Shown here piece after piece: positions 3,013 to 50,906 of a stretch of DNA of 50,906 nucleotides. The DNA is from Verrucomicrobiota bacterium (GTDB lineage Bacteria; Verrucomicrobiota; Verrucomicrobiia; Opitutales; Opitutaceae). The position numbers and the translations under genes were made by a program. Where the stretch lies: positions 1 through 50,906 of the forward strand of contig JAQGON010000204.1 in NCBI GenBank assembly GCA_028293565.1. The letters run 5' to 3'. Numbering within the stretch: the first letter of the stretch is position 1; each line of letters opens with the position of its first letter. The notes below the pieces were generated by a model that had not been told where the DNA came from, ran no database searches, and was given only the letters and a program-made list of their open reading frames with translations.

Positions 3013-3606
3013 ATGATCGGTCTGCTCGAAGGCAAGGGCACGCAGGTGAAGAAACCCGTTGAGAAGGTTTTTTCGCTGCGGCTCTCCGTGGTCGGCTGCC
3101 AGCCGCGCATCTGGCGGCGCCTCCTCGTCCGCGAATCGATGTGGCTCTCGCGGCTGCACGACAGCATCCAGGTCGCCTTCGACTGGTTCGACTACCAGAC
3201 GCACGCCTTCAACCTGGAGGAGCTGCGGTTCGGGAATCCGATGAAGCGCGACGAGGCGATGATCGAGGACGACCGCGACGTCGGCCTCGCCGATCTCGAC
3301 CTGGAGCATCGGAACCAGTTTGTCTACGAGTACCATTTCGGGGAGGGCTGGCAGATCGAGATCAAGATCGAGAAGGTCCTGCTGATCGAAAAAGGCACGA
3401 GCTATCCGGTCTGTCTCGCCGGCGAGCGGGCGGGCCCGCCCGAGGATTGCGGCGGCCTCGAGGCGTTTCATGACATGCTCGCGTGCATCAAGGAGCCCGA
3501 GACGGACCTGGGCCGCGAATGGCTCGAATGGCTCGGACCCGACTACGATCCGAATGCCTGCGACGTTGCGAAGATCAACAAGGGCCTCAAGAAGCTGACG
3601 AAATAG
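3013..3606 (+). CDS. pRiA4b ORF-3-like protein
   Basis: About 197 residues. The block LRLSVVGCQPRIWRRLLV, then LSRLHDSIQVAFDWFDYQTHAF and an acidic YEYHFGEGW segment, is the signature of the plasmid pRiA4b ORF-3 family (PF07929). Its biochemical role is not established; members occur on plasmids, with IS1096-type transposons and on chromosomes. The open frame extends upstream into the repeat array, so the ATG at 3013 is preferred because the family homology begins about 15 residues after it. No partner transposase is adjacent, so it looks like a stand-alone chromosomal copy. Confidence 0.85.
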   Translation: MIGLLEGKGTQVKKPVEKVFSLRLSVVGCQPRIWRRLLVRESMWLSRLHDSIQVAFDWFDYQTHAFNLEELRFGNPMKRDEAMIEDDRDVGLADLDLEHRNQFVYEYHFGEGWQIEIKIEKVLLIEKGTSYPVCLAGERAGPPEDCGGLEAFHDMLACIKEPETDLGREWLEWLGPDYDPNACDVAKINKGLKKLTK

Positions 3607-8801: not shown

Positions 8802-8859
8802 CAGCCTCGTGACCTCGGCTGCTACAGGTAATCAAGTAGCAGGCGACGTCAGGAGGCTG
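8802..8859. repeat. Family B REP hairpins, outward-facing pair
   Basis: One inverted copy (8802-8825, ending CTAC) and one forward copy (GTAG at 8836, ending GGCTG at 8859). The stems are CAGCC/GGCTG-like with a TCA-rich loop. The pair sits between the toxin and recD2. Confidence 0.65.
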
Positions 8860-8881
8860 TTTCCAGAAGCCTGAAGGGAAA

Positions 8882-11266
8882 TCACCGGGCCGCGATCTTC
8901 TGCTGAAGGTGGGTGACGCGCTGCTTGGATTCGCTGTTCCGCACGGCCATCGCGTAGGCGGCGGGCTCGCCGACGATCACGACGCGCTTTCGGCCACGCG
9001 TGATTGCGGTGTAGAGCAGGTTTCGCTGGAGCATCATGAAATGGCCCTTGAGCAGCGGGATGATCACCACGGGGTACTCGCTGCCCTGCGACTTGTGGAT
9101 GCTGATCGTGTAGGCCAGCGCGAGATCGCCGAACTCGCCGCGCTCGAACGTGTGCCGTTCACCGTCGAATCTGGCGTCGAGCGTGCCCTTGATCCCGTCG
9201 ATCGAGACGACGGAGCCGATGTCGCCGTTGAAGAGGTTCTTGTCGTAGTTGTTCCGGAGCTGGATGACCTTGTCGCCGGGACGGTACTCGGCGCTGGGCC
9301 CGCGCAGGCCGCGCTCGTGCGGGTTCAGCGCGGCCTGGAGGGAAATGTTGAGATTCGCGACGCCGGCCACGCCCTTGTGCATCGGCGCGAGCACCTGCAC
9401 GTCGTTCACCGGGTCGAGCCATTTCCAGTGCCGCGGGATGAATTCGGTGCAGAGCGCGATGACTTTTCCCAGGCAGTCCTCGGCGTCCTTCGCCGCGACG
9501 AACATGAGGTCGCCCCAGTCCCGCATCGCCGCGAAGTCCGCGACGGCGGGCGGCAGCGACGGGTCGCCGGCATTGATCGCATGCGCCGTGGTCACGATCC
9601 GGCTTTGCTCCTGCTGGCGGTAGATGACGGAAAGGCGGGTCACCGGGACCAATACCCTCGCAGATCGCAGTTCGGAGTTCGCAGTTCGATCGTCCGTTGA
9701 AGGCGTCGCTCCCATCGCATTCCCAGCCCCACCGCCAGTCTGCAATTTTCGATCTTCCGTTGCCGAGCTGCGAACTGCGAACTGCGAACTGCGATCTCCG
9801 ATCCCGCCTCCCGCCGCGATCAGATCCTTGAGGACGTTTCCCGCGCCGACGCTCGGGAGCTGGTCGGTGTCGCCGACAAGGAGGAGATGCGCCTTGGACG
9901 GAACGGCCTGCAGCAGCGCCGACGCGAGCCGCGCGTCGAGCATCGAGGCTTCGTCGACAATGAGGAAATCCGTCGCGAGCGGATGGGATTCGTTGCTGGT
10001 GAAGCCGCCGCTCGCCGGGTCGTACTTGAGGAGCCGATGGATGGTCGACGCCGCTCCGCCGGTCGTCTCGGCGAGGCGCTGGGCCGCGCGGCCGGTCGGG
10101 GCGGCGAGATGCACGCGGACCTTCTTCGCCTTCAGGATTTCAACCAGCGCGCGAAGGATCGTCGTCTTCCCTGTTCCGGGCCCGCCGGTGAGGATGGTGA
10201 ACTTGTGCGTCAGCGCGTGGCGGACGGCGGTGCGCTGGAGTTCGTGAAACGTGAAGCCCGCTTTTTTCTCGGCCCAATCCACGGCCGCCGCGGCCTTGAT
10301 CGGAGGAAGGCCGCTGGTGACGCGTCCGAGGCGCGCGACGACGTCGGCGATCTTCTGCTCGGCGCGGTCGTTGTGCGGAAGCTGGATCAGCGATTGCGGA
10401 TGGCGGACGGCGGACTGCGGGGCACCGGGCGGCGCATGGATGACCAGCGACTTGTTCTCGATGAGCGCGGCGATGCGCGCCTCGAGCAGCCTGGAATCGG
10501 TCTCGAGCTGGTTGGCGGAATAGGCGATCAGGTCGCCCTCGTGAAAGGCGGTGTGGCCTTCCTCCTGGAGCGTATCGAGCGCGAAGATGAGGCCGGCGTC
10601 GAGGCGCGGGGCGGCGTCGTTGGCAAACCCGAGGTTGATCGCGATCCGGTCGGCGGTCTTGAAGCCGATGCCGTCGATTTCCCGGGCGACCCGGTACGGC
10701 TCGTTCATCAGGATCTGTTTCGCCTGCGGGCCGAAGTGGTTGACGAGCTTCACGCACTGCGACGGCGTGACGCCGTAGGTCTGGAGAAAAATATAGAGCT
10801 CCCGCTCGGTGCGTTTCTCGTCCCACGCCTTTTTGATGAGGCCGGCGCGCTTTTTGCCGATGCCCTCGACGTCGCGCAGGCGTCCGGACTCTTCGCTCAG
10901 GATGCGGAAGGTGTCGGTGCCGAACGCATCGACGATCTTGTTCGCGTAGACTTTCCCGATGCCGGGCACGAGACCGCTGCCGAGGTATTTGCGGATCCCG
11001 TACACCGAGGCGGGCAATTCCGACTTGAAGCCGGCGATCTTGAACTGGGCGCCGTGCTGGGCGTGGTGCGTCCATTCGCCGTCGAGGTGGAGCGTCTCGC
11101 CGCATTCCACGCCCGGCAGCGCGCCGACGATCGTCACCTTGGCGGCGGCGTCCTTCGTGTCGCTGGCATCGGGCCGGAACTCCGCGATTGTGTAATGGTT
11201 TTCCTCGTTGAAAAAAATGATGCGCTCGAGGACGCCGGTCAGGATGCTGGGCGCGGGGGAAGTCAC
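8882..11266 (-). CDS. recD2: RecD2-type ATP-dependent 5'-3' DNA helicase
   Basis: 794 residues, longer than the usual 720-750. Order: an N-terminal OB-like region, helix-hairpin-helix segments (LVPGIGKVYANKI and VEGIGKKRAGLI), Walker A GGPGTGKTT, DEASMLD (motif II), GDTDQLPSVGAGNVL (motif III) and VIYRQQEQSRI (motif IV). The C-terminal motifs HKSQGSEYPVVI and LLYTAITRGRKRVVIVG complete a superfamily 1B helicase. RecD2 acts without RecBC, in repair and replication-fork processing. Between motifs III and IV about 50 residues (roughly 489-537) are encoded by a heptamer repeat array, and a second smaller array lies near residues 283-291. The frame is intact through both. Confidence 0.95.
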   Translation of the reverse strand: MTSPAPSILTGVLERIIFFNEENHYTIAEFRPDASDTKDAAAKVTIVGALPGVECGETLHLDGEWTHHAQHGAQFKIAGFKSELPASVYGIRKYLGSGLVPGIGKVYANKIVDAFGTDTFRILSEESGRLRDVEGIGKKRAGLIKKAWDEKRTERELYIFLQTYGVTPSQCVKLVNHFGPQAKQILMNEPYRVAREIDGIGFKTADRIAINLGFANDAAPRLDAGLIFALDTLQEEGHTAFHEGDLIAYSANQLETDSRLLEARIAALIENKSLVIHAPPGAPQSAVRHPQSLIQLPHNDRAEQKIADVVARLGRVTSGLPPIKAAAAVDWAEKKAGFTFHELQRTAVRHALTHKFTILTGGPGTGKTTILRALVEILKAKKVRVHLAAPTGRAAQRLAETTGGAASTIHRLLKYDPASGGFTSNESHPLATDFLIVDEASMLDARLASALLQAVPSKAHLLLVGDTDQLPSVGAGNVLKDLIAAGGGIGDRSSQFAVRSSATEDRKLQTGGGAGNAMGATPSTDDRTANSELRSARVLVPVTRLSVIYRQQEQSRIVTTAHAINAGDPSLPPAVADFAAMRDWGDLMFVAAKDAEDCLGKVIALCTEFIPRHWKWLDPVNDVQVLAPMHKGVAGVANLNISLQAALNPHERGLRGPSAEYRPGDKVIQLRNNYDKNLFNGDIGSVVSIDGIKGTLDARFDGERHTFERGEFGDLALAYTISIHKSQGSEYPVVIIPLLKGHFMMLQRNLLYTAITRGRKRVVIVGEPAAYAMAVRNSESKQRVTHLQQKIAAR
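9655..9805. repeat. Inverted pair of heptamer arrays inside recD2
   Basis: Left array 9655-9696: six 7-mers, mostly AGTTCGN. Right array 9736-9805: ten 7-mers in perfect register, with three identical CGAACTG. The arrays are inverted relative to each other, around a 39-bp spacer. The whole block is read through in frame by recD2. Confidence 0.85.
10393..10420. repeat. Second heptamer array inside recD2
   Basis: Four 7-mers in register: GATTGCG, GATGGCG, GACGGCG, GACTGCG. In RecD2 they encode part of the APPGAPQSAVRHPQSL stretch, which has no counterpart in the family as I know it. Confidence 0.6.
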
Positions 11267-11324: not shown

Positions 11325-11429
11325 GTAAAACGGGTCTCCCGACCCGTTGGAGCGGACGCGATTTACGGTGGACGCCGAGGGTCACCGTTTCGCCCGCATC
11401 CAGCGTCACGGGTCGGAGACCCGTGCTAC
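11325..11429. repeat. Family A element, copy A3
   Basis: Left hairpin AACGGGTC-TCC-CGACCCGTT with a GTAA head. The right hairpin faces the minus strand with a GTAG head, and its TAG is the stop of the small membrane gene at 11426. Confidence 0.8.
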
Positions 11430-14768: not shown

Positions 14769-14941
14769 GCATGGGTCAGGAGACCCATGCGACGTAGAAC
14801 GGGTCTCCGACCCGTTAAGCTGGACTCGAGCCCACCGAGCGGTCCGCACTGTCTTCAGGTCGAGCTCTGCCCTCACATTTGCCGCGTCCAGCCACATGGG
14901 TCAGGAGACCCATGCTACGTAAAACGGGTCTCCGACCCGTT
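14769..14941. repeat. Family A cluster upstream of RAYT, copy A4
   Basis: Four hairpins: a lone inverted CATGGGTC-type (14769-14790), a full GTAG...CTAC element (14794-14918) and a lone GTAA-headed AACGGGTC-type (14919-14941). The full element is subfamily II, with one CATGGG end and one AACGGG end. It fills the 302-base gap before the transposase. Confidence 0.85.
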
Positions 14942-15015
14942 ATGCCACCTGTATCTTAGATCAGCAGAGCCGCAAAATATTCGACGCGGGCTCATCGAGC
15001 GCACCGCCTCGCGCG

Positions 15016-15657
15016 ATGCATCGCTCGCTGCTGCCTCAGCACATTCGCGTCCGACAAGGCGCCCATCTTCCCCACTGGACGGCGCCCGGTTCCACTTATG
15101 CCGTGTGTTTTCGGCTGGCCGATTCTCTTCCCAAGCACGTTCTGGCCAGCTGGAAAAGAGAGCGTGCCGAAATGCTCGCCCGCTTCCACCGCGGCCACGA
15201 GCCGCTCACGCCGGGAGCGATCAAGGAAATTCGCGAGCTGTTCGCTCACCGCATCGATCGCTATCTCGATGCCGGATACGGCGGATGTTTCCTTCGCAAT
15301 CCATCCGTGGCGAAGATCGTCGCGAACGCCCTCGGCCACTTCGTCGGCGAACGCTATCTGCTCCATGCCTGGTGCATCATGCCCAATCATGTTCATGCGG
15401 TGTTGACGCCGGTGAACGGCCATTCCTTGCCGGAAATAATGAAATCGTGGAAGGGATATACCGGTACGGAAGCCAACCGTGCCTTGGATCGCGAAGGCCC
15501 CTTTTGGCAGGTCGAGTACTACGATCATCTCATCCGGGACGATCCGGAGTTCGCGCAAGCTGTGCGATACACCCTCGAGAATCCGGTCAAAGCCAGGCTG
15601 GCCGATTGGTCTTGGGTATGGGCATCCGAAGAAGCGTTGAAACGGGTGGCCGAGTAG
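15016..15657 (+). CDS. REP-associated tyrosine transposase (RAYT, Y1_Tnp)
   Basis: 213 residues. Single-strand DNA transposase of the Y1/HUH type. The HUH motif is in WCIMPNHVHAVL (about residue 125), and the catalytic tyrosine is in WQVEYYDHLIRDD (about residue 167). N-terminal LPHWTAPGSTYAVCFRLADSLP is typical of RAYT proteins. These enzymes bind and cleave REP hairpins carrying a GTAG-like tetranucleotide. Here the gene is flanked by GTAG-headed hairpins, and its own stop codon is the TAG of the downstream head. It appears intact and is the only transposase in the window that fits the family A repeats. Confidence 0.95.
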   Translation: MHRSLLPQHIRVRQGAHLPHWTAPGSTYAVCFRLADSLPKHVLASWKRERAEMLARFHRGHEPLTPGAIKEIRELFAHRIDRYLDAGYGGCFLRNPSVAKIVANALGHFVGERYLLHAWCIMPNHVHAVLTPVNGHSLPEIMKSWKGYTGTEANRALDREGPFWQVEYYDHLIRDDPEFAQAVRYTLENPVKARLADWSWVWASEEALKRVAE

Positions 15658-15778
15658 CATGGGTCTCCCGACCCATGTGGTTGGACGCGGCAAACGTGAT
15701 GGCAGAGCTCGATCTAAAGACAGTGCGGGCCGGTCGGTCGGCTCGAGTCCAGCTTCACGGGTCGGAGCCCCGTGCTAC
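15654..15778. repeat. Family A-II element ending two convergent genes, copy A5
   Basis: GTAG at 15654-15657 contains the RAYT stop; CTAC at 15775-15778 contains, on the other strand, the stop of the PqiC-like gene. The right hairpin has one stem mismatch. The 125-bp element is the entire spacer between the two genes. Confidence 0.9.
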
Positions 15779-16398
15779 TTCACCGTCGCCACCAGGCTCG
15801 CGACGCGATCCGAAAATCCGTCGATCGCCTCGCTCAGTTTCTGCGCGAGCTGGCCGTAACCCTGCCGGTCCCATCCCGGGATCTCCGTCGTAAACGTCTC
15901 CCGCGCCCGGCGCACGCCGTCGGGGCCAGGGGTGAAAATCTCCACCTGCGCCACAAACCGGGCGACGCCCGCCTCACGGTCGCCCTCGCAGCGGATCACC
16001 GTCACGAGAATCTCGAAATCGTGGTCCTCGCCCAATGACGCCACGACGTGCGCGATCGGGCCGCGTCCCTCCAAACCGTCGCGGAGCACACGCCCGATGC
16101 CCGCTTCGAGCCCTTCCGCCCAGCGGGATTCGTCCGCGTACGTGATCTCGTTCGATGCCACGCGGACCTGCATCGCCTTGCTGCTCCGAAGATAACTCGG
16201 CAGCTGGATTGCCCGCAGCGCCACGCGCAAGTGCGCGCCCTCGGCCGGAGCGGCCTTCGCGGCCGGGAGGGTGAGCACAAAATAGCGCGTGAGGTCAGGC
16301 TGCGCCTGCGGAAGCGAGCATCCTGCGATCGCGAACGCCCCGGCAATGAGCCAGAGGCGCGAGGAAAAAATCCGGCGGATTGGGTTCAAAATCATCAT
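15775..16398 (-). CDS. PqiC-like ABC-transport auxiliary lipoprotein
   Basis: 207 residues. Lipobox IAGCS after a hydrophobic segment (LWLIAGAFA), so it is probably an outer-membrane or periplasmic lipoprotein. The RYFVLTLPAA start and the LRVALRAIQLPSYL and RWAEGLEAGIGRVL blocks are those of the PqiC/DUF330 (ABC-type auxiliary) family. It is the last gene of an Mla/Pqi-type lipid-transport operon, 33 bases after the MCE gene. Expected role: docking of the MCE channel at the outer membrane. The stop TAG belongs to the adjoining repeat. Confidence 0.9.
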   Translation of the reverse strand: MMILNPIRRIFSSRLWLIAGAFAIAGCSLPQAQPDLTRYFVLTLPAAKAAPAEGAHLRVALRAIQLPSYLRSSKAMQVRVASNEITYADESRWAEGLEAGIGRVLRDGLEGRGPIAHVVASLGEDHDFEILVTVIRCEGDREAGVARFVAQVEIFTPGPDGVRRARETFTTEIPGWDRQGYGQLAQKLSEAIDGFSDRVASLVATVK

Positions 16399-16431
16399 CG
16401 TCGCGATCTCCGTTTTTTGCGTGGTTGAAAA

Positions 16432-17430
16432 TCAGCGCGGCTTTTTCCCGGTGATCAGCGCGTTCGGATTCCGCTCGATGAAGTCCGCGAGCCGCTGCAC
16501 CGCGTCCGCCGCGTCCCGGAGCTGGGCCAGGGTGTGCGTGACCTCGTCGCCCAGGCCGCCCTGCGCCGCGATGAACTTCCGCGCGTCGTTGGCCGCGGCG
16601 TTGAAGGACTCCAGCGTCGTCTTCGCCTGCGCCAGCGTCTCCTGCAGCTCCCTGCCCGCCGGCATCACCTGGGTGTCGAGTTTCGCGAGCACCGTCCGCA
16701 GGTCCGTCACCGCCGCATTCAGGTTGGCGAACGTCTGCTTGATCTCGGGGGCCGTCGCCGCGGCCTCGACCGCGACGCCCGTCTGCTTCCATTGCGCCAC
16801 CACGCCCTTCAGGTCCAGCCCATCGATCTGCCGGTGCGCCGAAACGAGGACGGTCTTCAGCTCGACCGAGATTCCCGCAAAATCGACCTTCTGGAGGTTC
16901 GCCAGAATTTCCGACACGCTCGCCTGGAATTCGGAAATCGCCGAAGGCATCGCCGGCACGACCGGGTATCTCGGATCCGTCAGCCGGTTGTCGACCGGGA
17001 ATTCCTTCGGATCCATGAAATCCAGCTCGACGAACAGGAGGCCCGTCGCCAACCCGAGCACCCCGAGCTGGGCGCGCAGGCCGCGGTCGACCAGGATCGC
17101 CATTTCCCCGCGCTGGGAGACGTCGATCACGCTGCCGGAGGTGTCGGTCACCATGTTCTTGCTGAACTCGCACACCACGACGACGACCGAGTGGTTCTTG
17201 TCCTTGTCATACCGGACATTGAGGTCGACCACGCGGCCGACGCGCACGCCGCGCAGCTTGACCGGGGAACCGAGGTCAAGTCCGTGGATCGACTCGTCGA
17301 AATACACCACGAACCGCTGCGGCTTCGAAAAAAAACTCACGCTCCCGAACGACAGCAGCCCGATGATGATCAGGGCGAATCCGCCCAGCACGAACGCGCC
17401 GACCACCGCGGGACTGAACTTGGTTTTCAC
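16432..17430 (-). CDS. MCE-domain substrate-binding protein (MlaD-like)
   Basis: About 332 residues. Short N-terminal anchor (VVGAFVLGGFALIIIGLLSFGS), one MCE domain at about residues 38-115 (RFVVYFDESIHGLDLGSPVKLRGVRVGRV), then a long alpha-helical region, as in proteins that form hexameric lipid-channel rings. GTG at 17430 is chosen because homologues start with the same KTK-F-PxxVGAFVLG. The longer frame to 17481 would start in heptamer repeat DNA. Works with the MlaE/MlaF pair upstream in phospholipid movement between membranes. Confidence 0.9.
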   Translation of the reverse strand: MKTKFSPAVVGAFVLGGFALIIIGLLSFGSVSFFSKPQRFVVYFDESIHGLDLGSPVKLRGVRVGRVVDLNVRYDKDKNHSVVVVVCEFSKNMVTDTSGSVIDVSQRGEMAILVDRGLRAQLGVLGLATGLLFVELDFMDPKEFPVDNRLTDPRYPVVPAMPSAISEFQASVSEILANLQKVDFAGISVELKTVLVSAHRQIDGLDLKGVVAQWKQTGVAVEAAATAPEIKQTFANLNAAVTDLRTVLAKLDTQVMPAGRELQETLAQAKTTLESFNAAANDARKFIAAQGGLGDEVTHTLAQLRDAADAVQRLADFIERNPNALITGKKPR

Positions 17431-17457
17431 GTGAACGAAGGGATAAAGGCTGGGGAG

Positions 17458-17619
17458 GAAGTGACAAGTGACGAGTAACAAGTGGCCGGCGACGCGATTC
17501 CAGGCCGGGCCGTCCGCGTCCCGGGACCCCGCGGTCGGGTGCGGATCATTCCAGGTCGCGCCAGCGGCTGAGTCTCCAATCCGAAATTCATGGCGCTCGT
17601 CACTGGCCGCTGGCCGCTC
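17458..17619. repeat. Inverted pair of heptamer arrays between mlaF and mlaD
   Basis: Left 17458-17499: six 7-mers (for example CAAGTGA, CGAGTAA, CAAGTGG). Right 17571-17619: seven 7-mers (GTCACTG, GCCGCTG, GCCGCTC and others). AGTGACGAG at 17467-17475 is inverted at 17596-17604. The right array encodes the last residues and the TGA of the MlaF-like gene. Confidence 0.7.
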
Positions 17620-18412
17620 CGCCGGCGACGCCGGGCGCCGGCAGGTCGCCCCGATGAAGAAACTCGATCACGCGCGGATCGCGGCTGTCCGCGGCCAGCT
17701 CGCGCGGTTTTCCTTCGGCGATGATCCCCTGCGCGGCCCGCTCGAGCATGATCACGCGGTCGGCGATGCTGAAAATCGAAGCGAGCTCGTGCGAGACCAC
17801 CACGATCGTGGTCCCGAACATCCCGCGGATCTCGAGGATCAGCTCGTCGAGGCGGCGCGACGTGATCGGGTCAAGGCCCGCCGACGGCTCGTCGAGGAAC
17901 AGGATCGCCGGGTCGAGCGCCAGCGCCCGCGCGAGGCCGGCCCGCTTCTTCATGCCGCCGCTGATTTCAGAGGGATAGTAATCCTCGAAGCCGCTCAGCC
18001 CGACCTGCGAAAGCTTGAGCGCGACGAGTTCCTGGATCTCCCCGGGCGTGAGCCGCGTGTATTCCTCGAGCGGCAGCGCCACGTTCTGCCGCAGCGTGAG
18101 CGAGCTCCACAGCGCCCCGCTCTGGTAAAGCACGCCGAAGGTCTGGAGCAGGGCGCGCCGCGCGGCCGCGTCGTTCTCCGCAAAAACCCGGTCGAAGTAT
18201 TTCACCACGCCGGTCATCGGCGTCTCGATCCCGATCAGATTGCGGAGCAGCGTGCTCTTGCCGCAGCCCGAGCCGCCGATCACGAAGAAAATCTCGCCGG
18301 GCCTCACCGCAAAGCTCACGTCCTTCAGCACCACCGTGCCGTCATAGCCGCAGGTCAGCCGCGAGGCTTCGATGGCGGGGACGGTTGCGGGACCGGGCGT
18401 GGGGTCGATCAT
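17600..18412 (-). CDS. ABC transporter ATP-binding protein (MlaF-like)
   Basis: 270 residues. Walker A GGSGCGKST, signature ISGGMKKRAGLARAL (MlaF-type, not LSGGQ), Walker B ILFLDEPSAGLDP and the switch histidine in VVVSHELASIF. The DEPSAGLDPITSRRLDELI block is typical of the MlaF/Ttg2A branch, which energises phospholipid transport with MlaE. It starts four bases after the permease stop. The C-terminal GVAGGAASGQ is low complexity and encoded by heptamer repeats, so the true family C-terminus probably ended near FLHRGD. Confidence 0.93.
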   Translation of the reverse strand: MIDPTPGPATVPAIEASRLTCGYDGTVVLKDVSFAVRPGEIFFVIGGSGCGKSTLLRNLIGIETPMTGVVKYFDRVFAENDAAARRALLQTFGVLYQSGALWSSLTLRQNVALPLEEYTRLTPGEIQELVALKLSQVGLSGFEDYYPSEISGGMKKRAGLARALALDPAILFLDEPSAGLDPITSRRLDELILEIRGMFGTTIVVVSHELASIFSIADRVIMLERAAQGIIAEGKPRELAADSRDPRVIEFLHRGDLPAPGVAGGAASGQ

Positions 18413-18416
18413 CGCG

Positions 18417-19544
18417 TCAGAGCCCGACGATGTTGAAGAGCACCGCGAAAATCGCGTCGGCGACGATGATGAAGAGGATGGCCGTGACCACCGCCGAGGT
18501 CGCCGCGCGCCCGACCCCTGCCGCGCTGCGGTCGGCCTGCAGCCCGCGCAGGCAGCCGGCGACGCCGACGATCAGGCCGAAGGTCACCGCCTTGATCACG
18601 CCCGCCGCCACGTCGCCCAGCGACACAATCGTCAGCATCTCGACCCAGAAGGCGGTCGGAGAAATCGAGAGCACGCCGCGCGCGACCGCCATGCCCCCCA
18701 AGATTCCGAGGGCGTTCGCATAAAGCGCGAGCAACGGCATCATCACGCCGAGCGCGAGCAGACGGGGCAGCACGAGGAAAGTGACCGCGGGAATCCCCAG
18801 CGTCTCGAGCGCGTCGATCTCCTCGTTCGCCTTCATGTTCCCCAGCTGGGCCGCAAACGCCGCGCCCGTGCGGCCCGCGAGGACCACGCCGGTCATCATC
18901 GCGCCCATCTCCCGCACCATCGCCAGGCCGATCAGGTCCGCGACGTAAATGTCGCCGCCATACTGCCGGAGCACGAGCGCGCCGGTGTAGGCGAGCGTCA
19001 CGCCGACGAGGAAGCTGATCAGGCTGACGATCGGCAGGGCCATCGCCCCGCACTGCTGCATTTCCACGATGCAGTCGCGCCAGCGGAATTTCCGCGGATT
19101 CTTCACCACCCGCGCCGCGCTCAGCACGCATTCGCCCACGAAACTGGACATCGCGGTGCCCTTGGACACGAGGTCCCTGGTCGCCAGCCCGACTGTGATG
19201 AGGAAATTTTCCGTGCGGTCGAAGGGCACGCAGGTCTCGTGCGAGGCGGCGAGCTGGGTGAGGAGGAGCCGGATTTTTTCCGGAAGCGCGCCGACGTCGG
19301 CATGCGCCCCGTTGGCCTGGCACCATTGCTGCGCGGCGAACAAAAACAGCAGCAGGGAGCTGTCCCATTTCTCGACCTCGTCGACCCGGAAACGGACGCG
19401 CGCCGGCCGGCGCGTCCCGAGCACCTCGCCCCACGACGGCCGCACCTCGGCGGCCTGCCACACGCCGCCGAGCGAGACCTCCAGCACGTCGCCGGCCATT
19501 TCGGCCGCCACGCGGGCAGGGAGAGTTTCCGAAAGGACGGCCAT
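18417..19544 (-). CDS. MlaE permease with fused N-terminal STAS domain
   Basis: About 375 residues. Residues ~1-120 form a STAS-like (MlaB) domain (GDVLEVSLGGVW, VRFRVDEVEKWDSSLLLFL). The rest is the MlaE/DUF140 permease with five or so membrane segments, including VGVTLAYTGALVLRQYGGDIYVADLIGLAMVREMGAMMTGVVLAGRTGAAFAAQLGNM and NEEIDALETLGI in pieces. In E. coli, MlaB and MlaE are separate proteins; here they are one chain. First gene of the operon. ATG at 19544 avoids repeat-derived upstream frame. Confidence 0.93.
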   Translation of the reverse strand: MAVLSETLPARVAAEMAGDVLEVSLGGVWQAAEVRPSWGEVLGTRRPARVRFRVDEVEKWDSSLLLFLFAAQQWCQANGAHADVGALPEKIRLLLTQLAASHETCVPFDRTENFLITVGLATRDLVSKGTAMSSFVGECVLSAARVVKNPRKFRWRDCIVEMQQCGAMALPIVSLISFLVGVTLAYTGALVLRQYGGDIYVADLIGLAMVREMGAMMTGVVLAGRTGAAFAAQLGNMKANEEIDALETLGIPAVTFLVLPRLLALGVMMPLLALYANALGILGGMAVARGVLSISPTAFWVEMLTIVSLGDVAAGVIKAVTFGLIVGVAGCLRGLQADRSAAGVGRAATSAVVTAILFIIVADAIFAVLFNIVGL

Positions 19545-19603: not shown

Positions 19604-19730
19604 GTAGCATGGGTCTCCCGACCCATGTGGCTGGACGCGGCAAACCTGATGGCCGAACTCGAACTGAAAGACAGTGCGGACGGGTCCGTGGGCTCGAGTC
19701 CGCCTCAACGGGTCGGGAGACCCGTTCTAC
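19604..19730. repeat. Family A-II element, copy A6a
   Basis: 127 bp from GTAG to CTAC with CATGGGTC and AACGGGTC hairpins. The next copy follows with no spacer. Confidence 0.88.
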
Positions 19731-19857
19731 GTAGCATGGGTCTCCCGACCCATGTGGCTGGACGCGGCAAACGGGAGGGCCGGGCTCGAACCGAAAGACA
19801 GTGCGGACCGGTCCGTGGACTCGAGTCCAGCTCAACGGGTCGGGAGACCCGTTCTAC
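19731..19857. repeat. Family A-II element, copy A6b
   Basis: Also 127 bp and directly abutting A6a, with small differences. Its terminal CTAC supplies the dapL stop on the minus strand. Confidence 0.88.
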
Positions 19858-21077
19858 TTCAGCGCCGCCGCGATCCGGGCGAGCGCTTCCTCGACGTTCG
19901 CGCGGGAATTGAACGCGCTGATGCGCACGTGCCCTTCGCCGCACTTGCCGAACCCGGCACCCGGCGTGCAGACCACCTGGGCTTTGCTCAGCAAGAGATC
20001 GAAGAACTCCCACGAATCCCGGCCGGTGTTGACCCAGATGTAGGGCGCGTTGTCCCCGCCGACGCACTTGAGTCCGAGCTTCGCGACCGCGGCGCGGATC
20101 AGCTTCGCGTTGCCAAGATAGAAATCCGTGAGCGCCTTCGTCTGGGCCTTGCCGGCATCAGTGTAGATCGCCGCGGCGGCCTTCTGGATCGGGTAGGCGA
20201 CGCCGTTGAATTTCGTCGTATGCCGGCGATTCCAGAGCGCATGCACCGAGTGTTCGTTCCCGGCGGAATCCCAGGCCTTCAGCGCTTTCGGCACGACGGT
20301 GTAGGCGCAGCGCGTGCCGGTGAAGCCGGCGATCTTGGAATAGCTCCGGAATTCGATCGCGACCTCCCGCGCGCCCGCGATCTCGTAGATGCTGTGCGGA
20401 ATCGCCGGATCGCGAATGTAGGATTCGTAAGCGGCGTCGAAGAGGATGATCGCCCGGTGCTTCCTCGCGTAGGCGACCCACGCCTCGAGCTGGGCCTTCG
20501 TCGCCACGGCTCCCGTGGGATTGTTCGGGAAGCACAGATAGATCAGGTCGGCGGGCGTCGACGGGATCGCCGGCACGTACCCGTTGGCCGGAGTGGAGTC
20601 GAGGTAGGTGACCCCCGGATAGCGTCCATCGACGTTCGCTCCCGTGCGCCCCGCCATGACATTGGTGTCGACGTACACCGGGTAAACCGGATCGGGAATC
20701 GCGAGGCGGATGTCGGTCGAAAAGATTTCCTGGATGTTCCCGCAGTCGCACTTTGAACCGTCGGAGATGAAGACCTCGTCGGCTTCCACCTCGCAGCCGC
20801 GCGGCGCGAACTCGTGCTGCACCACGGCCTCGCGCAGAAACGCATACCCCTGCTCGGGGCCGTAACCCCGGAAAGTCTCGCGCCGCGCCATCTCGTCGGT
20901 CGCCGCGTGCAGCGCCTCGACGCACACCGGCGGGAGCGGCTCGGTGACATCGCCGATGCCGAGCCGGATGACCGGCTTCGCGGGGTTCGCGGCGACGTAG
21001 GCGCTGACGCGCTTGGCGATGTCGGCGAAAAGATAGGAGGCCTTGAGCTTCGTGTAGTTCTCGTTGATGCGGATCAT
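19854..21077 (-). CDS. dapL: LL-diaminopimelate aminotransferase
   Basis: 407 residues, near the usual ~410. It converts tetrahydrodipicolinate plus glutamate directly to LL-diaminopimelate, for lysine and peptidoglycan. Family marks: [21 protein letters not shown] at the start, [55 protein letters not shown] and the PLP lysine in [10 protein letters not shown] (about residue 246). DapL is typical of Chlamydiae, Verrucomicrobia, plants and some other lineages. The stop TAG is the GTAG head of repeat A6b. Divergent from the PanC-like gene with about 200 bases between. Confidence 0.97.
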
Positions 21078-22134: not shown

Positions 22135-22446
22135 GTAGCAGCCGACGTCAGAAGGCTGTGGCCCGCGCTCGGCCGGGCAAACACCATAGACCCAGCCGCC
22201 TGACGTCAGCTGCTACCGGGTGCAGCGCATTGCCCCAATGCGCTGGAGACGCGAGCGAACGTTTCGCGGTCGACGCAGCCGGATTCTCTCGTAGCAGCCG
22301 ACGTCAGAAGGCTGTGGCCCGCGTTCGACCGCGGAAGCACCATGGAGTCAGCCGCCTGACGGCGGCTGCTAGCAGGTGGAGCGCATTGCCCCTAATGCGC
22401 TGGAGACGAGATCGAACGTTTCGCGGTCGACGCAGCCGCCGGCGCA
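22135..22446. repeat. Tandem pair of 156-bp units with family B REPs
   Basis: Unit 1 starts at 22135, unit 2 at 22291. Each has a GTAG-headed hairpin (CAGCCGACGTCAGAAGGCTG), its inverted partner ending CTAC/CTAG (22216, 22372), then a GCGCATTG...AATGCGC hairpin and a conserved GAACGTTTCGCGGTCGACGC tail. It fills the 425-base gap between the PanC-like and aldolase genes. Confidence 0.8.
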
Positions 22447-23387: not shown

Positions 23388-23555
23388 TACAGAAGGCAAC
23401 GAAGATAACGAAGGGCCCGCCGTGTGCGGAGTCAGGGTGGCAAGCAGGACTACCCTGGAGGGGGTCCGGAGCTGAAATCAAAATCTGGCGCCCGCTTGTG
23501 AACCCTGGCGTTTTCAACGGACACCTCTTCGTTTCCTTCGTTACCTTCTGTTCAA
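23388..23555. repeat. Family C MITE-like element, copy C1
   Basis: Ends are imperfect inverted repeats of about 27 bp: ACAGAAGGCAACGAAG-type on the left, and CTTCGTTTCCTTCGTTACC then TTCTGTTCAA on the right. Length ~168 bp with no open frame of note. Occupies the gap before rhaEW. Confidence 0.75.
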
Positions 23556-25833: not shown

Positions 25834-25837
<4 letters not shown>

Positions 25838-25976
25838 CACGGGTCTCCGACCCGTGAAGCTGGACTCGAGAACAACGCACCGGCCAGCATTTTGAAGTAG
25901 CACTCGAGAACAACCGATGAGCTCAGCTTTCACAGTCAGCGTGCGTCCAGCCACACGGGTCGGAGACCCGTGCCAC
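25834..25976. repeat. Family A element with internal rearrangement, copy A7a
   Basis: Starts GTAG (TAG = rhaEW stop), ends GTGCCAC. An extra partial middle (25886 onward) repeats the ATTTTGAAGTAGCAC junction also found before A7b, indicating a tandem duplication with loss of one hairpin. Confidence 0.8.
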
Positions 25977-25993
25977 CGGCCGGGCATTTTGAA

Positions 25994-26099
25994 GTAGCAC
26001 GGGTCTCCTGACCCGTAAAGCTGGACTCGAGAACAACCGATGAGCTCAGCTTTCACAGTCAGCATGCGTCCAGCCACACGGGTCGGAGACCCGTGCCAC
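25994..26099. repeat. Family A element, copy A7b
   Basis: 106 bp, GTAG to CCAC. It ends five bases before the isomerase start codon, so it must also carry or replace that gene's leader. Confidence 0.85.
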
Positions 26100-26104
26100 C
26101 TTTC

Positions 26105-26971
26105 ATGAAACTCGGCGCGCATATTTTTCTCTGGACGCAACGCTGGGCCGATTCGGAAATTTTCCTCTTCGAAAGGGCGCGCTCCCTCGGGCTCGAGCTC
26201 CTCGAGGTTTCGCTCGGGCTCGATGCGAAATTCTCCGCCTCCGCGGCGCGCCGCGCGGCTGACGCCGCAGACGTGGGCATCGTGGTCAGCCCCGGAGGAG
26301 AATGGCCGGCAGGCGCCGACCTCTCCGACGACGACCCCGTCAACCGCCGCAGCGCGGCGGAGTTTCACACCCGGCTGATCGACCAGGCGGCGGACCTGGG
26401 TGCGGTCGCCTATGCCGGGGCGATCTATGGGCGGCCCGGCAAAGTCCTGCGGCGCCGGCCGCCGCCGGACGAATTTCGCCGCGCGGCCGACGGCCTGCAC
26501 GCGCTCGCCGACCATGCGGCCAAGGCGCAGGTGAAACTCGTGATCGAGCCGATGAGCCGCTTCCGGTCCCATGTGGTGAACACTCCGGCGCAGGCGATGG
26601 AGCTGCTCGCGCTCGCGGATCACGCCAACCTGTTTGTCCTCCTCGACACCTATCATCTGGTGACCGAGGTGCGCGATTATGCGGCGGCGATCCGGCTGGT
26701 GGGCGACCGGCTTTGGGGATTGCACGCGTGCGAGAATGACCGGGGGGTTCCGGGAGGCGGATTGCTGCCGTGGCCGCAGATTTTTTCGGCGTTGCAGGAG
26801 ACTCGCGCCGAATATGTGGGGTTCGAGTCGTACAACACGGGAATCGGTGACTTCGGTTTCCAGCGCGGGATGTTCCAGGACGTCTGCCCGGACGGCGACG
26901 CCTTCGTGCGCGCCGCAGTGTCCTTCACGCGCAAGCATCTCCCTTGTGTAGCACGGGTCTCCGACCCGTGA
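26105..26971 (+). CDS. Xylose-isomerase-like sugar isomerase/epimerase
   Basis: 288 residues. TIM-barrel AP-endonuclease-2 superfamily. Metal ligands are visible in VIEPMSRF (Glu), LLDTYHLV (Asp, His), LHACENDRG (His, region of the third ligand) and VGFESYN (Glu). This pattern resembles D-tagatose 3-epimerase/allulose epimerase relatives. It follows rhaEW and may act in the same sugar pathway. The last seven residues (VARVSDP) and the TGA are encoded by the downstream repeat, so the original C-terminus has been replaced. The start at 26105 is five bases after another repeat; no clear ribosome-binding site is visible. Confidence 0.88.
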   Translation: MKLGAHIFLWTQRWADSEIFLFERARSLGLELLEVSLGLDAKFSASAARRAADAADVGIVVSPGGEWPAGADLSDDDPVNRRSAAEFHTRLIDQAADLGAVAYAGAIYGRPGKVLRRRPPPDEFRRAADGLHALADHAAKAQVKLVIEPMSRFRSHVVNTPAQAMELLALADHANLFVLLDTYHLVTEVRDYAAAIRLVGDRLWGLHACENDRGVPGGGLLPWPQIFSALQETRAEYVGFESYNTGIGDFGFQRGMFQDVCPDGDAFVRAAVSFTRKHLPCVARVSDP

Positions 26972-27051
26972 AGGTGGACTCGAGCTAAACGGCCGCGCTC
27001 AACGTTCTCCGTTGGCAGAGTCCGCCCCCACGGGTCGGAGACCCGTGCTAC
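26948..27051. repeat. Family A element, copy A8
   Basis: 104 bp from GTAG to CTAC. Its first 24 bases are translated as the end of the isomerase gene. Confidence 0.9.
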
Positions 27052-28940: not shown

Positions 28941-29044
28941 GTAGCACGGGTCTCCGACCCGTGAAGCTGGACTCGAGCTAAACGGGTGTGCTCAACGTTC
29001 CCCGTTGGCCGAGTCCGCCCACACGGGTCGGAGACCCGTGCTAC
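28941..29044. repeat. Family A element, copy A9
   Basis: 104 bp, GTAG to CTAC, 29 bases after the FecR stop. The 219 bases from here to A10 contain a degenerate repeat-like stretch near 29046-29085 and nothing else recognised. Confidence 0.9.
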
Positions 29045-29263: not shown

Positions 29264-29367
29264 GTAGCACGGGTCTCCGACCCGTGAAGGTGGACTCGAG
29301 CTAAACGGATGTGCTCAACGTTCTCAGTTGGCAGAGTCCGCCCACACGGGTCGGAGACCCGTGCTAC
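29264..29367. repeat. Family A element, copy A10
   Basis: 104 bp, GTAG to CTAC, very similar in the middle to A8 and A9. It lies immediately before the receptor leader. Confidence 0.9.
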
Positions 29368-48039: not shown

Positions 48040-48209
48040 TGAACAGAAGGTAGCGAAGGAAACGAAGCGTCGTCCGTGCAAGGAGTCCGGGTTGCAGGCG
48101 AAAGCCAATGCGGAGGAGGGTTGGAATTCAAACCGATCGCTCGATGCAGCCTGCAACCCTCGCGGTTTCGACGGACGGCGCTTCGTTCCCTTGGTGTGCT
48201 TCTGTTCAA
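48040..48209. repeat. Family C MITE-like element, copy C2
   Basis: 170 bp with ~29-bp inverted ends (GTGAACAGAAGG... and ...CTTCTGTTCAA). Part of the 562-base gap between mqo and the OPT gene. Confidence 0.8.
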
Positions 48210-48240
48210 AATAGATCGATCCAACCTCGAACCTCAATCA

Positions 48241-48409
48241 TTGAACAGAACTAGCGAAGGTAACGAAGCGCGGTCCGTGCGAGGAGTCCGGGTTTCAAGC
48301 GGAAGCCAGTGCGAAGGAGGATCGGAACCCAACTGATCACTGGATGCAGCCTGCAACCCTCGCAGCTTCGACGGACGGCGCTTCGTTTCCTTCGTTTGCT
48401 TCTGTTCAA
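48241..48409. repeat. Family C MITE-like element, copy C3
   Basis: 169 bp starting TTGAACAGAA and ending TTCTGTTCAA. The middle is ~80% like C2. The two copies are 31 bases apart in the same orientation. Confidence 0.85.
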
Positions 48410-48487
48410 AAAGGATCGGGGATCGGTTCCGGTCGCCCACTGCCATTTCTCCGTTGGCTTGAAGGTGTCGCGCACTATACCGGTCCG

Positions 48488-50809
48488 ATGGCTTCTCCCT
48501 CGTTTCCCCCGGTTGAGCCCTACATCGCGCCTGAGACGTCGATGAAGGAATTTACGGTGCGGGCGGTTCTCACGGGCGCAATCCTCGGGCTGATCTTCGG
48601 CGCTTCGTCTCTCTACCTTGTCCTCAAGGTCGGCCTCACGGTCAGCGCATCCATTCCGGTGGCGGTCATCTCGCTGGCGATGTTCCGCGGATGGTCGAAG
48701 CTCGGCGGACGCGACGCGACGATCCTCGAGAACAACATCACGCAGACGGCCGGTTCCGCCGGCGAGTCGCTCGCCTTTGGCATTGGCGTGACGATGCCTG
48801 CCATCCTGATCCTGGGTTTCGACCTCGAGCTCACGCGAGTGATGCTCGTCGCGATGCTCGGCGGGCTGCTTGGCATCCTGATGATGATCCCGCTGCGGCG
48901 CGCCTTGATCGTGAAGGAACACGGCGTGCTGAAATACCCCGAGGGCACGGCCTGCGCGGCGGTGCTCAAGGCGGGCGCGAGCGCCGGCTGTCGCGCGGCA
49001 GCCTCGCCGGCGGCGCAGACGGAAATGCGCGCGGCGGAGGCGGCGGGCCTGGGAAAGTCGCCGGGCGCGAAAGTCATCTTCACCGGCTTCGGCCTCGGAC
49101 TGCTCTACAAGTCGCTCAACGTCGCCTTCAAGGGCTGGAAGGATACGCCGGAGCGGATCTTCGGCGCGCCGTTCAAGGGAGGTTCGGTGAGCGTGGAAAT
49201 TTCCCCCGAACTGCTGGGCGTCGGCTATATCATCGGGCCGCGCATCGCCTCGATCATGTGCGCCGGCGGCGTGCTCAGCTACCTGCTCCTGATTCCTCTG
49301 ATCAAGTTTTTCGGCGACAGCATTCCGGGTCCGCTTGCGCCCGGCCTCATCCCCATCTCGGACATGGGGCCCGGCCAGATCCGCACCGCCTACATTCTCT
49401 ACATCGGCGCGGGGGCGGTCGCGGCCGGCGGGATCATCAGCCTCGTGCAGTCGATGCCGACAATCTGGCACGGACTTCGCGGTGGATTGAAGGACCTTGG
49501 ATTGACGCGCGGGGACAGCGGCGCCGGTGAAACACCGCGGACCGATCGCGATCTTCCGATGAAGTTCGTGGGCATCGGAATCGTCGGGATCATTGCGATC
49601 ATCGTGCTCGCGCCCACGCTGCACATGAACCTGCTCGGCGCGTTGCTCATCGTGCTGTTCGGTTTTTTGTTCGTGACCGTTTCGTCGCGGCTGACGGGAG
49701 AAATCGGCTCCTCGTCCAATCCAATCTCGGGCATGACCGTGGCGACGCTGCTCTTCACCTGCCTGATTTTCCTGCTCGTGGGCTGGACGGGCGGCACGTA
49801 CTACGTGACCGCCCTCTCGATCGGGGCGATCGTGTGCATCGCCGCCTCGAACGGCGGCTCCACTTCGCAGGACCTGAAGACCGGCCATCTGCTGGGCGCG
49901 ACGCCGAAATATCAACAGCTCGCGATCATCGCCGGCAGCATGTTGTCGGCCGTTTTGCTGGGACCGATTCTGCTGACGCTCAACGATTCGGCGACCGTGT
50001 ATGTTCCCGCCGCGCAGGTGGCGCCGGCGGGATTGCAGACGGATGTGACGAAGCTGGAAAAATCCGAGGTGCTGCGCGGACCCCAGCATCGGGACGATGC
50101 GGGCACCTATCACGTGTGGCAGAAGACCGACGAGGCGGGTGGGCCGTCGGGCCGCTATCTCGTGAACGACGGAGGCAAGGCCGTCTGGCTGGTGGATCCC
50201 GGGATCAACGGCGCGTACAGCACGCGTCCCGACGGGACGACGGTGAAGAAATTCGACGCGCCGAAGGCGACGCTGATGTCGTATATCATCAAGGGGATTC
50301 TCGACCGGAAACTGCCGTGGGCGCTGGTGCTGCTCGGCGTCATGATTGCCGTGACGACGGAGATGTCGTTCCTGCCGGCGCTGGCATTTGCGGTGGGGGT
50401 TTACCTGCCGTTGTCGTCGTCGAGTCCGATCTTCATCGGCGGACTGATCCGGTGGATGGTGGATCGCCGCGCGCGGAAGCAGGCATCGCACGCCGAGTTG
50501 ACGGAGGAGCAGATGATCGAGGAGTCCGACAAGAGCCCGGGCGTGCTGCTGGCGTCGGGTTATATCGCGGGCGGGGCGATTGCCGGGATCATCATCGCGA
50601 TTCTCGCAGGGGCGCTGGACAAGGTGAGCCCGGCGCTGGCGATCTTCTTCGAGCGGGTCGATTCGCGGCTGAACGCGTGGTCGACGGCGCACAATCCGTT
50701 TTTTGCCGGACCGAATTCAAACGCCCTCTCGATGATCCCGTTCGTGATCCTCTGCGCGCTGCTGTATTACGTCGGTCGAGAAGTGCTGCTGGCCCCGAAG
50801 CGACGGTAG
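48488..50809 (+). CDS. OPT-family oligopeptide transporter
   Basis: 773 residues with about 16 membrane segments. OPT signatures: [108 protein letters not shown] in parts, [13 protein letters not shown] and [17 protein letters not shown]. Such proteins take up peptides or metal-chelates with protons. A soluble loop of about 100 residues (~510-610, including [18 protein letters not shown]) interrupts the C-terminal half. ATG at 48488; the open frame runs upstream through C3 but that part is repeat-encoded. The stop TAG is in a family A head. Confidence 0.94.
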
Positions 50810-50906
50810 CACGGGTCTCCGACCCGTGAAGTGAGGCGCTGCTAGCTGAGGACGTCCTCCGGAGATTCACGCCATCGCCGTCGCGATCGAAGGTTGGCGC
50901 GGAGTT
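50806..50906. repeat. Family A element, copy A11, left part
   Basis: GTAG head plus full left hairpin (to about 50828). The sequence after it departs from the family middle and contains a GAGGACGTCCTC palindrome (50849-50860). The window ends before a right end could appear. Confidence 0.7.

Follow-up and report, generated by a model that had tools for sequence, protein, structure and literature searches.

In Pseudomonas fluorescens, two inverted REPs reportedly make up one long hairpin, the REPIN, with one RAYT per REP family. The REPINs described here differ from those of P. fluorescens in sequence and form dimers of 103-127 nt. The group 3 TnpA-REP system of Stenotrophomonas maltophilia (subclass 2.5), as described in the available portions of PMC8266576 and PMC6006769, shares with the present locus a REP of 23 nt with a GTAG head, a perfect 8-bp stem and a 3-nt loop, and an HUH-Y1 enzyme with its own REPs that carries an aspartate at the position of E. 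coli E100 (D170 here). Unlike in that system, the host here is probably an Opitutaceae-like member of the Verrucomicrobiota, many heads read GTGG, and 4-nt loops occur in three of the six hairpins adjoining the RAYT gene. The group 2 enzyme, TnpA-REP of E. coli (4er8), has the same fold, HUH motif and tyrosine, and its W94, Q95, H101, R104, Y115 and N119 are kept here; the E. coli REPs, however, are longer and have a bulge, and the C-terminal tail of the E. coli enzyme contacts the head (available part of PMC8266576). According to the same text, the enzymes of groups 2 and 3 rely on different determinants, and structural data for group 3 are lacking. GTAG REP families (GTAG-17, -19 and -20) are also on record for Opitutus terrae, which probably belongs to the same bacterial family as the present host; going by their description in the accessible portion of PMC3733652, which names no RAYT for O. 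terrae, they share the GTAG/GTGG heads found here, and GTAG REPs often provide TAG stop codons to flanking ORFs.

The DNA that we analysed, referred to below as the window, is a single stretch of 50,906 nucleotides. We conclude with high confidence that it carries a REPtron, made up of a single-copy RAYT (TnpA-REP) and its cognate REPIN family. D170 and the 23-nt REP with a perfect 8-bp stem suggest that the RAYT is group 3-like. A RAYT of G076, a genome assigned to the same family as the source of the window, does not differ over the stretch compared from one in a contig labelled Opitutus sp. GAS368, which points to an Opitutaceae-like host.

The transposase and its flanking repeats

The RAYT gene lies at 15016-15657 on the forward strand, inside the region 14769-15778, and encodes 213 aa. 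The protein matches Pfam Y1_Tnp with 28 bits (cut-off 23) and the NCBIfam model NF047646 (REP_Tyr_transpos) with E 6e-22 and 78 bits, 2 bits under the curated cut-off of 80. In a sequence search of the PDB, 4er8, the E. coli TnpA-REP on its REP hairpin, was the sole match at E <= 0.01. An AlphaFold2 model built from 35 family sequences (pLDDT 88.7) again had 4er8 as the top match in Foldseek (E 6e-7) and as the best match in VIA-align (Z 14.4, rmsd 2.8 over 138 residues). By sequence and predicted fold, the protein is a TnpA-REP. Its HUH metal motif (H125-V126-H127) and its catalytic tyrosine (Y185) are intact, as a sequence-only reading of the locus had claimed; V126, H127 and Y185 are kept in 64/64 aligned RAYTs, the present one counted, and H125 in 63/64. 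Residues W164, Q165, D170, H171, R174, E178, Y185 and N189, numbered by counting off the sequence alignment, stand opposite E. coli W94, Q95, E100, H101, R104, D108, Y115 and N119; the alignment with E. coli TnpA-REP marks W164, Q165, D170, H171 and R174 as a putative head-contact region.

Only one close RAYT was found in the genome, the next best match being 30% identical (E 8e-6). The assembly consists of 239 contigs and is scored 99.6% complete with an estimated contamination of 4%, so it may hide a second RAYT or contain a repeat-borne misjoin. The genome also has two other Y1-like transposase genes, of 345 and 178 aa, at 5455-6492 of L044 (C33) and 3657-4193 of L045 (C78).

The RAYT gene has GTAG-headed hairpins on both sides, as the sequence-only reading had it; their stems measure 8 bp and their loops 3 or 4 nt. 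On the 5' side, a complete REPIN of 125 nt (14794-14918, reverse strand) is preceded by GTCG-CATGGGTC-TCCT (14770-14793, reverse strand), the left-end hairpin that remains of another inverted REPIN, and followed by a remnant hairpin, GTAA-AACGGGTC-TCC (14919-14941, forward strand), directly 5' of the RAYT leader. The complete 3' REPIN, also of 125 nt (15654-15778, forward strand), has the left hairpin GTAG-CATGGGTC-TCCC, a right hairpin with one stem mismatch and the right head CTAC. The two complete REPINs are inverted relative to each other and 90.4% identical.

The stop codon of the RAYT gene is the first TAG of the 3' REPIN, supplied by its GTAG head, and the last CTA of the same REPIN is the TAG stop of a lipoprotein gene on the reverse strand. 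The right head of the REPIN at 19731-19857 gives an aminotransferase gene its TAG stop. At 47 of 107 GTAG heads the TAG-ending frame was open for at least 100 codons; the other frames reached this length at 28 and 21, and among GTGG heads the figure was 9 of 55. The use of GTAG heads as stop codons, reported earlier, is confirmed here; a GTAG head at gene ends as a new stop-codon device was dropped as a candidate because the available text of PMC3733652 already reports TAG stops from REPs. At a GTGG-headed RAYT locus (L125 of G016, at 2091-2315) the frame stays open past the 3' REPs to the next stop at 3135, and the head gives no stop.

The REPIN family and its pairing with the RAYT

The complete element of the family, called family A, is a REPIN: two GTRG-headed hairpins, heads outward, with 8-bp stems and a loop of TCC or of TCCC/TCCT, whose arms pair into one long hairpin in folds predicted with RNA parameters. 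Besides the RAYT locus we counted nine other places in the window, in line with the ten or so of the sequence-only reading, all on the forward strand. They are single REPINs of 103 nt at 44-146, 105 nt at 11325-11429 and 104 nt at 26948-27051 (of the dominant subtype), 28941-29044 (predicted to fold as one long hairpin) and 29264-29367; a cluster with 77-nt repeat steps at 2712-2969; a tandem of two 127-nt REPINs at 19604-19730 and 19731-19857; two REPINs (25834-25976 and 25994-26099) within 25834-26099; and a hairpin close to the contig end at 50806-50828. Genome-wide, 248 hairpins with a 3-nt loop and 62 with a 4-nt loop were counted, allowing at most one mismatch; the reversed pattern gave 0. 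The window holds 19 and 9 of these, where 3.0 and 0.76 are expected from its share of the genome, an enrichment of about sixfold and twelvefold (binomial p 4e-10 and 7e-8).

Other features were seen in the window. A TPP riboswitch (RF00059, 64.2 bits, gathering cut-off 54.3) lies at 192-305 on the forward strand. A second GTAG-started repeat, GTAGCAG..GACGTCAG.AGGCTG, occurs at 8836-8886, 22135-22185 and 22291-22341; it differs from family A and is possibly another REP-like family. A further dispersed repeat family is present at 23501-23555 and 48051-48418, in stretches of 55-88 nt with 80-89% identity.

One regular expression found 181 distinct hairpins in the window and in sampled stretches of the genome, and a looser pairing yielded 85 dimers, 83 of which were used after one spurious 33-nt pair and one double count had been removed. 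By length, 57 of the 83 measure 103-106 nt, 14 measure 124-127 nt and 12 are of other lengths, in a sample where diverged copies are under-represented since dimers were located through recognisable hairpins. The 103-106-nt form is thus the dominant one and mostly has the stem-loop CACGGGTC-TCC. Its nearest-neighbour identity has a median of 0.962, with 27/57 copies having a neighbour at 97% or above; for the 124-127-nt REPINs, the subtype found at the RAYT, the median is 0.913 and 0/14 reach 97%. Judged by these identities, the shorter subtype is the younger. Its near-identical copies on unlinked contigs, including an identical pair on C5 and C92, are as expected for recent spread. The RAYT had been read as embedded in the dominant REP family of the window, and this is right for the family; its own flanks belong to the less common 124-127-nt subtype. 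It had also been called active-looking; its motifs are intact, but because its flanks are not of the young, dominant subtype, we infer rather than observe that the enzyme is active.

To relate RAYTs to their repeats, we compared 64 RAYT loci, drawn from the order of the present host and from further phyla: the one in the window, 34 of the 41 members of one homologue set, the seven weakest or partial homologues being kept out of the flank count, and 29 of another set. A headed hairpin (GTAG, GTGG or GGAG only) lies within 300 bp on the left at 49/64 loci, on the right at 48/64 and on either side at 53; control stretches of similar size, some 1 kb distant, contain one in 5/58 (left) and 7/57 (right) cases. 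Among 115 loci selected for a callable head, 111 have hairpins on both sides. At 96 of these 111 loci the left stem is the same as the right one, whereas comparisons between loci give identical stems in 205 of 12,210 cases. The distance between stems grows with the distance between RAYT proteins (Mantel r 0.36, 0/2000 permutations as high, n=115): the same stem is shared by 17/17 protein pairs less than 20% apart and by 0/766 pairs more than 65% apart. The closest homologue found, the RAYT of G053, is 59% identical and has the same CACGGGTC stem alongside, in a genome with 165 copies of the family, and the RAYT of G047 (52% identical) is adjoined by the CACGGGTC form with a 3-nt loop. Only in G000, G053 and G047 does the family A stem stand beside an examined RAYT. 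A second stem family, GGGCW, has 225 copies in G016, 80 in G089 and 20 in G034, and the RAYTs of all three carry a GGGCW stem; it is also found in G014 (12 copies) and G088 (6), neither of which has a RAYT match at 1e-15, G014 having two weaker matches (best 2.5e-11).

Across 141 genomes, the presence of family A and that of a RAYT appear only loosely associated. The family A pattern occurs in 10 of them; a RAYT match at 1e-15 exists in 7 of these 10 and in 38 of the 131 genomes without the pattern (Fisher p 0.012). The congener G011 (94% complete) has 42 family A copies and gave no Y1_Tnp match at E <= 0.01. In G021, G036, G041 and G032, with 12, 8, 5 and 3 copies, the best RAYT examined is flanked by other stems; G009 and G001 have 2 and 1 copies. 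Among 11 congeners, one has a RAYT at E <= 1e-15 (37% identical), and G008 has two weak matches (best 2.8e-10). Family populations in genomes without a RAYT match at these thresholds are most simply explained as left behind after RAYT loss, or by assembly gaps.

The matched stems and their co-variation with the protein make it well supported that the window RAYT is cognate to its REP family. The sequence-only reading had gone further, proposing that the RAYT spreads family A, and had named family A copies abundant in relatives without this RAYT as evidence against; the G011 copies are in part such a case, and together with the subtype of the RAYT flanks they leave the proposal partly supported. 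The putative activities of the window RAYT are REP binding, cleavage and mobilisation. Most likely it recognises REP hairpins in single-stranded form by their 5' GTAG/GTGG head and their 8-bp stem-loop, cuts REP DNA by means of Tyr185 and the HUH metal site above it, and spreads REPINs, as inverted REP pairs of 103-127 nt forming one long hairpin, to new sites. The second head base would be read by H171 and E178, the counterparts of E. coli H101 and D108.

Two other accounts of the system were considered. The window RAYT might be a relic or a newcomer that handles only the 124-127-nt subtype, the 103-106-nt REPINs having been spread by another RAYT, now lost or hidden in an assembly gap. The long subtype of the complete REPINs at the gene, the younger age of the short one, the 3-nt-loop form beside the 52% identical RAYT of G047 and the division of the assembly into 239 contigs all fit such a history. 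We nevertheless find it improbable: a genome scored 99.6% complete has one such RAYT gene, of the two further Y1-like genes, the one on C33 shares its contig with no GGGTC/GACCC hairpin and the one on C78 is more than 3 kb from any, and dimers combine 3- and 4-nt loops, so one enzyme may accept both. Still harder to credit is that the RAYT and its bracketing REPs move as one IS200/IS605-like unit. Such a unit would account for the matched REPs that bracket the gene at 111 loci of the callable-head set of 115, and for the patchy occurrence of RAYTs among congeners; however, the genome has a single RAYT copy, the nearest heads point different ways from locus to locus (41, 35, 18 and 17), unlike the fixed left and right ends of an IS, and none of the 8 neighbour genes scanned with Pfam is tnpB. 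A REPtron with a single cognate RAYT is the reading that we retain.

Residues 171 and 178 and the second base of the head

Position 171 of the RAYT is H in 23/24 GTRG-headed loci and R in 27/29 GGAG-headed loci. For a wider comparison, a head was called where the same tetramer, not named beforehand, stood in at least two hairpins of a locus. The first round covered 104 loci and gave 74 head calls, 68 of them GT or GG and 66 of these with at least 140 aa; R171 with H178 (one N178) was present in 35/35 GG-headed loci and 0/31 GT-headed loci. For the second round the rule was fixed in advance, and 86 loci outside family f1 were taken, plus two more that gave no call. Heads were called at 54 of the 86, 49 as GT or GG and 5 otherwise, with 32 uncalled; 49/49 GT or GG loci fit the rule, and with a stem length of 9 four of the five others have a GTAG or GTGG head. 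Overall the strict rule holds for 114/115 loci, the exception being L132 with N178. E. coli TnpA-REP, with H101, D108 and, according to the available text of PMC8266576, a GTAG head, obeys it too. In E. coli numbering, the comparison suggests that R101 with H (once N) at 108 goes with GG, and that GT heads accompany H101, or R101 combined with E/Q at 108.

In the available portions of PMC6006769 and PMC8266576, REP heads take the form GT[AG]G, class 3 being the exception with its other tags (CnGA). PMC6006769 counts H101 among the residues contacting GTAG and describes it as 'sometimes replaced by R', with no tie to the head. Literature searches for a GGAG head with RAYT or TnpAREP returned nothing relevant, and GGAG is absent from the main texts, figures and supplements aside, of PMC2817692, PMC3686654, PMC6006769 and PMC8266576. 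GG-headed hairpins (GGAG, GGAA, GGAC) were seen beside R171/H178 RAYTs at L087, L095, L096, L098-L105 and L107-L111, and the putative GG-head class is spread over contigs that carry the labels Verrucomicrobiota, Planctomycetota, Hydrogenedentota and Alphaproteobacteria.

An apparently inverted mla-type operon beside the RAYT

The neighbour genes carry the Pfam names HAD hydrolase, ABC_trans_aux, MlaD, ABC ATPase, MlaE permease and class I/II aminotransferase; the hydrolase gene we take to be gph, and the aminotransferase gene presumably is dapL. An mla-type operon of the ABC_trans_aux lipoprotein, MlaD, ABC ATPase and MlaE permease genes occupies 15775-19544 on the reverse strand (start of the last gene approximate), followed on the same strand by the aminotransferase gene (19854-21077). 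The order in the window is gph(-), RAYT(+), lipoprotein(-), mlaD(-), ABC(-), permease(-), dapL(-), whereas in 11/11 congeners it is gph(-), permease(+), ABC(+), mlaD(+), lipoprotein(+), dapL(-), with dapL of G003 cut by a contig end. In the congeners the aminotransferase gene faces the 3' end of the lipoprotein gene directly, and the comparison indicates an inversion of the operon in the window, which may have taken in the RAYT as well.

Both breakpoints of the inversion fall in REPIN blocks. The REPIN at 14794-14918 is inverted relative to those at 19604-19730 (88.2% identical) and 19731-19857 (89.8% identical), and by sequence such a pair has the right geometry for inversion by recombination. 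If it did recombine, the RAYT would once have lain between the lipoprotein and dapL genes; ordinary homologous recombination or RAYT action could either one have turned the operon. At this presumed former place of the RAYT, the 3' end of the lipoprotein gene, G011 has a 124-nt REPIN (L251:1349-1472) whose hairpins match those of the window. That this solo REPIN may be the scar of a lost RAYT was considered and not adopted, because its interior does not align with the window REPINs. Titles from our literature searches included none on REPIN- or RAYT-linked inversions. Work in Salmonella is said to have found REP-mediated duplications. A precedent for repeat-driven rearrangement, involving a different repeat, is TRIP1 in E. 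coli (available part of PMC10888264).

We put at about even the chance of the combined reading that a two-residue switch in the RAYT reads the second head base, that the R/H enzymes define a REP class outside GT[AG]G and that the RAYT-REPIN block flipped the operon. The tie between residues 171/178 and the head might instead be inherited by descent and not causal, which is a real though lesser possibility. On a tree of the 115 rows with both columns removed, the head changes about 5 times, 2 of the changes being forced by strongly supported branches, so common descent could explain much of the rule, and independent pairs on the tree are too few for a sign test. Descent sits less well with the ranking of the alignment columns, where 178 and 171 sort 114 and 109 of the 115 loci and outrank all others (the third best, column 28, sorts 104), with the identity of 171 as the equivalent of E. 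coli H101, one of the residues discussed as contacting GTAG (PMC6006769), and with the success of a rule written before the 49 new loci were seen. As to the operon, its apparent inversion may be an assembly misjoin at the REPINs, with no real rearrangement behind it. Repeats of about 125 bp that are 88-90% identical, in an assembly of 239 contigs, could give rise to one; we consider it unlikely, as the gene order is otherwise intact on both sides and contigs usually stop at an unresolved repeat rather than jump across it.

The system in the window is an ordinary one, of a kind already known, to which the present analysis adds a testable two-residue head code and a REPIN-bounded inversion. The inverted mla-type operon is a concrete example of a gene-order change that is marked by REPINs and lies next to the transposase they belong to. 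REP biology has yet to explain how a Y1 transposase, once domesticated, comes to choose one repeat family as its own, and with matched RAYT/REP pairs the question can be put to two named residues and one named base. If the proposed code is true, two substitutions would re-aim a RAYT.
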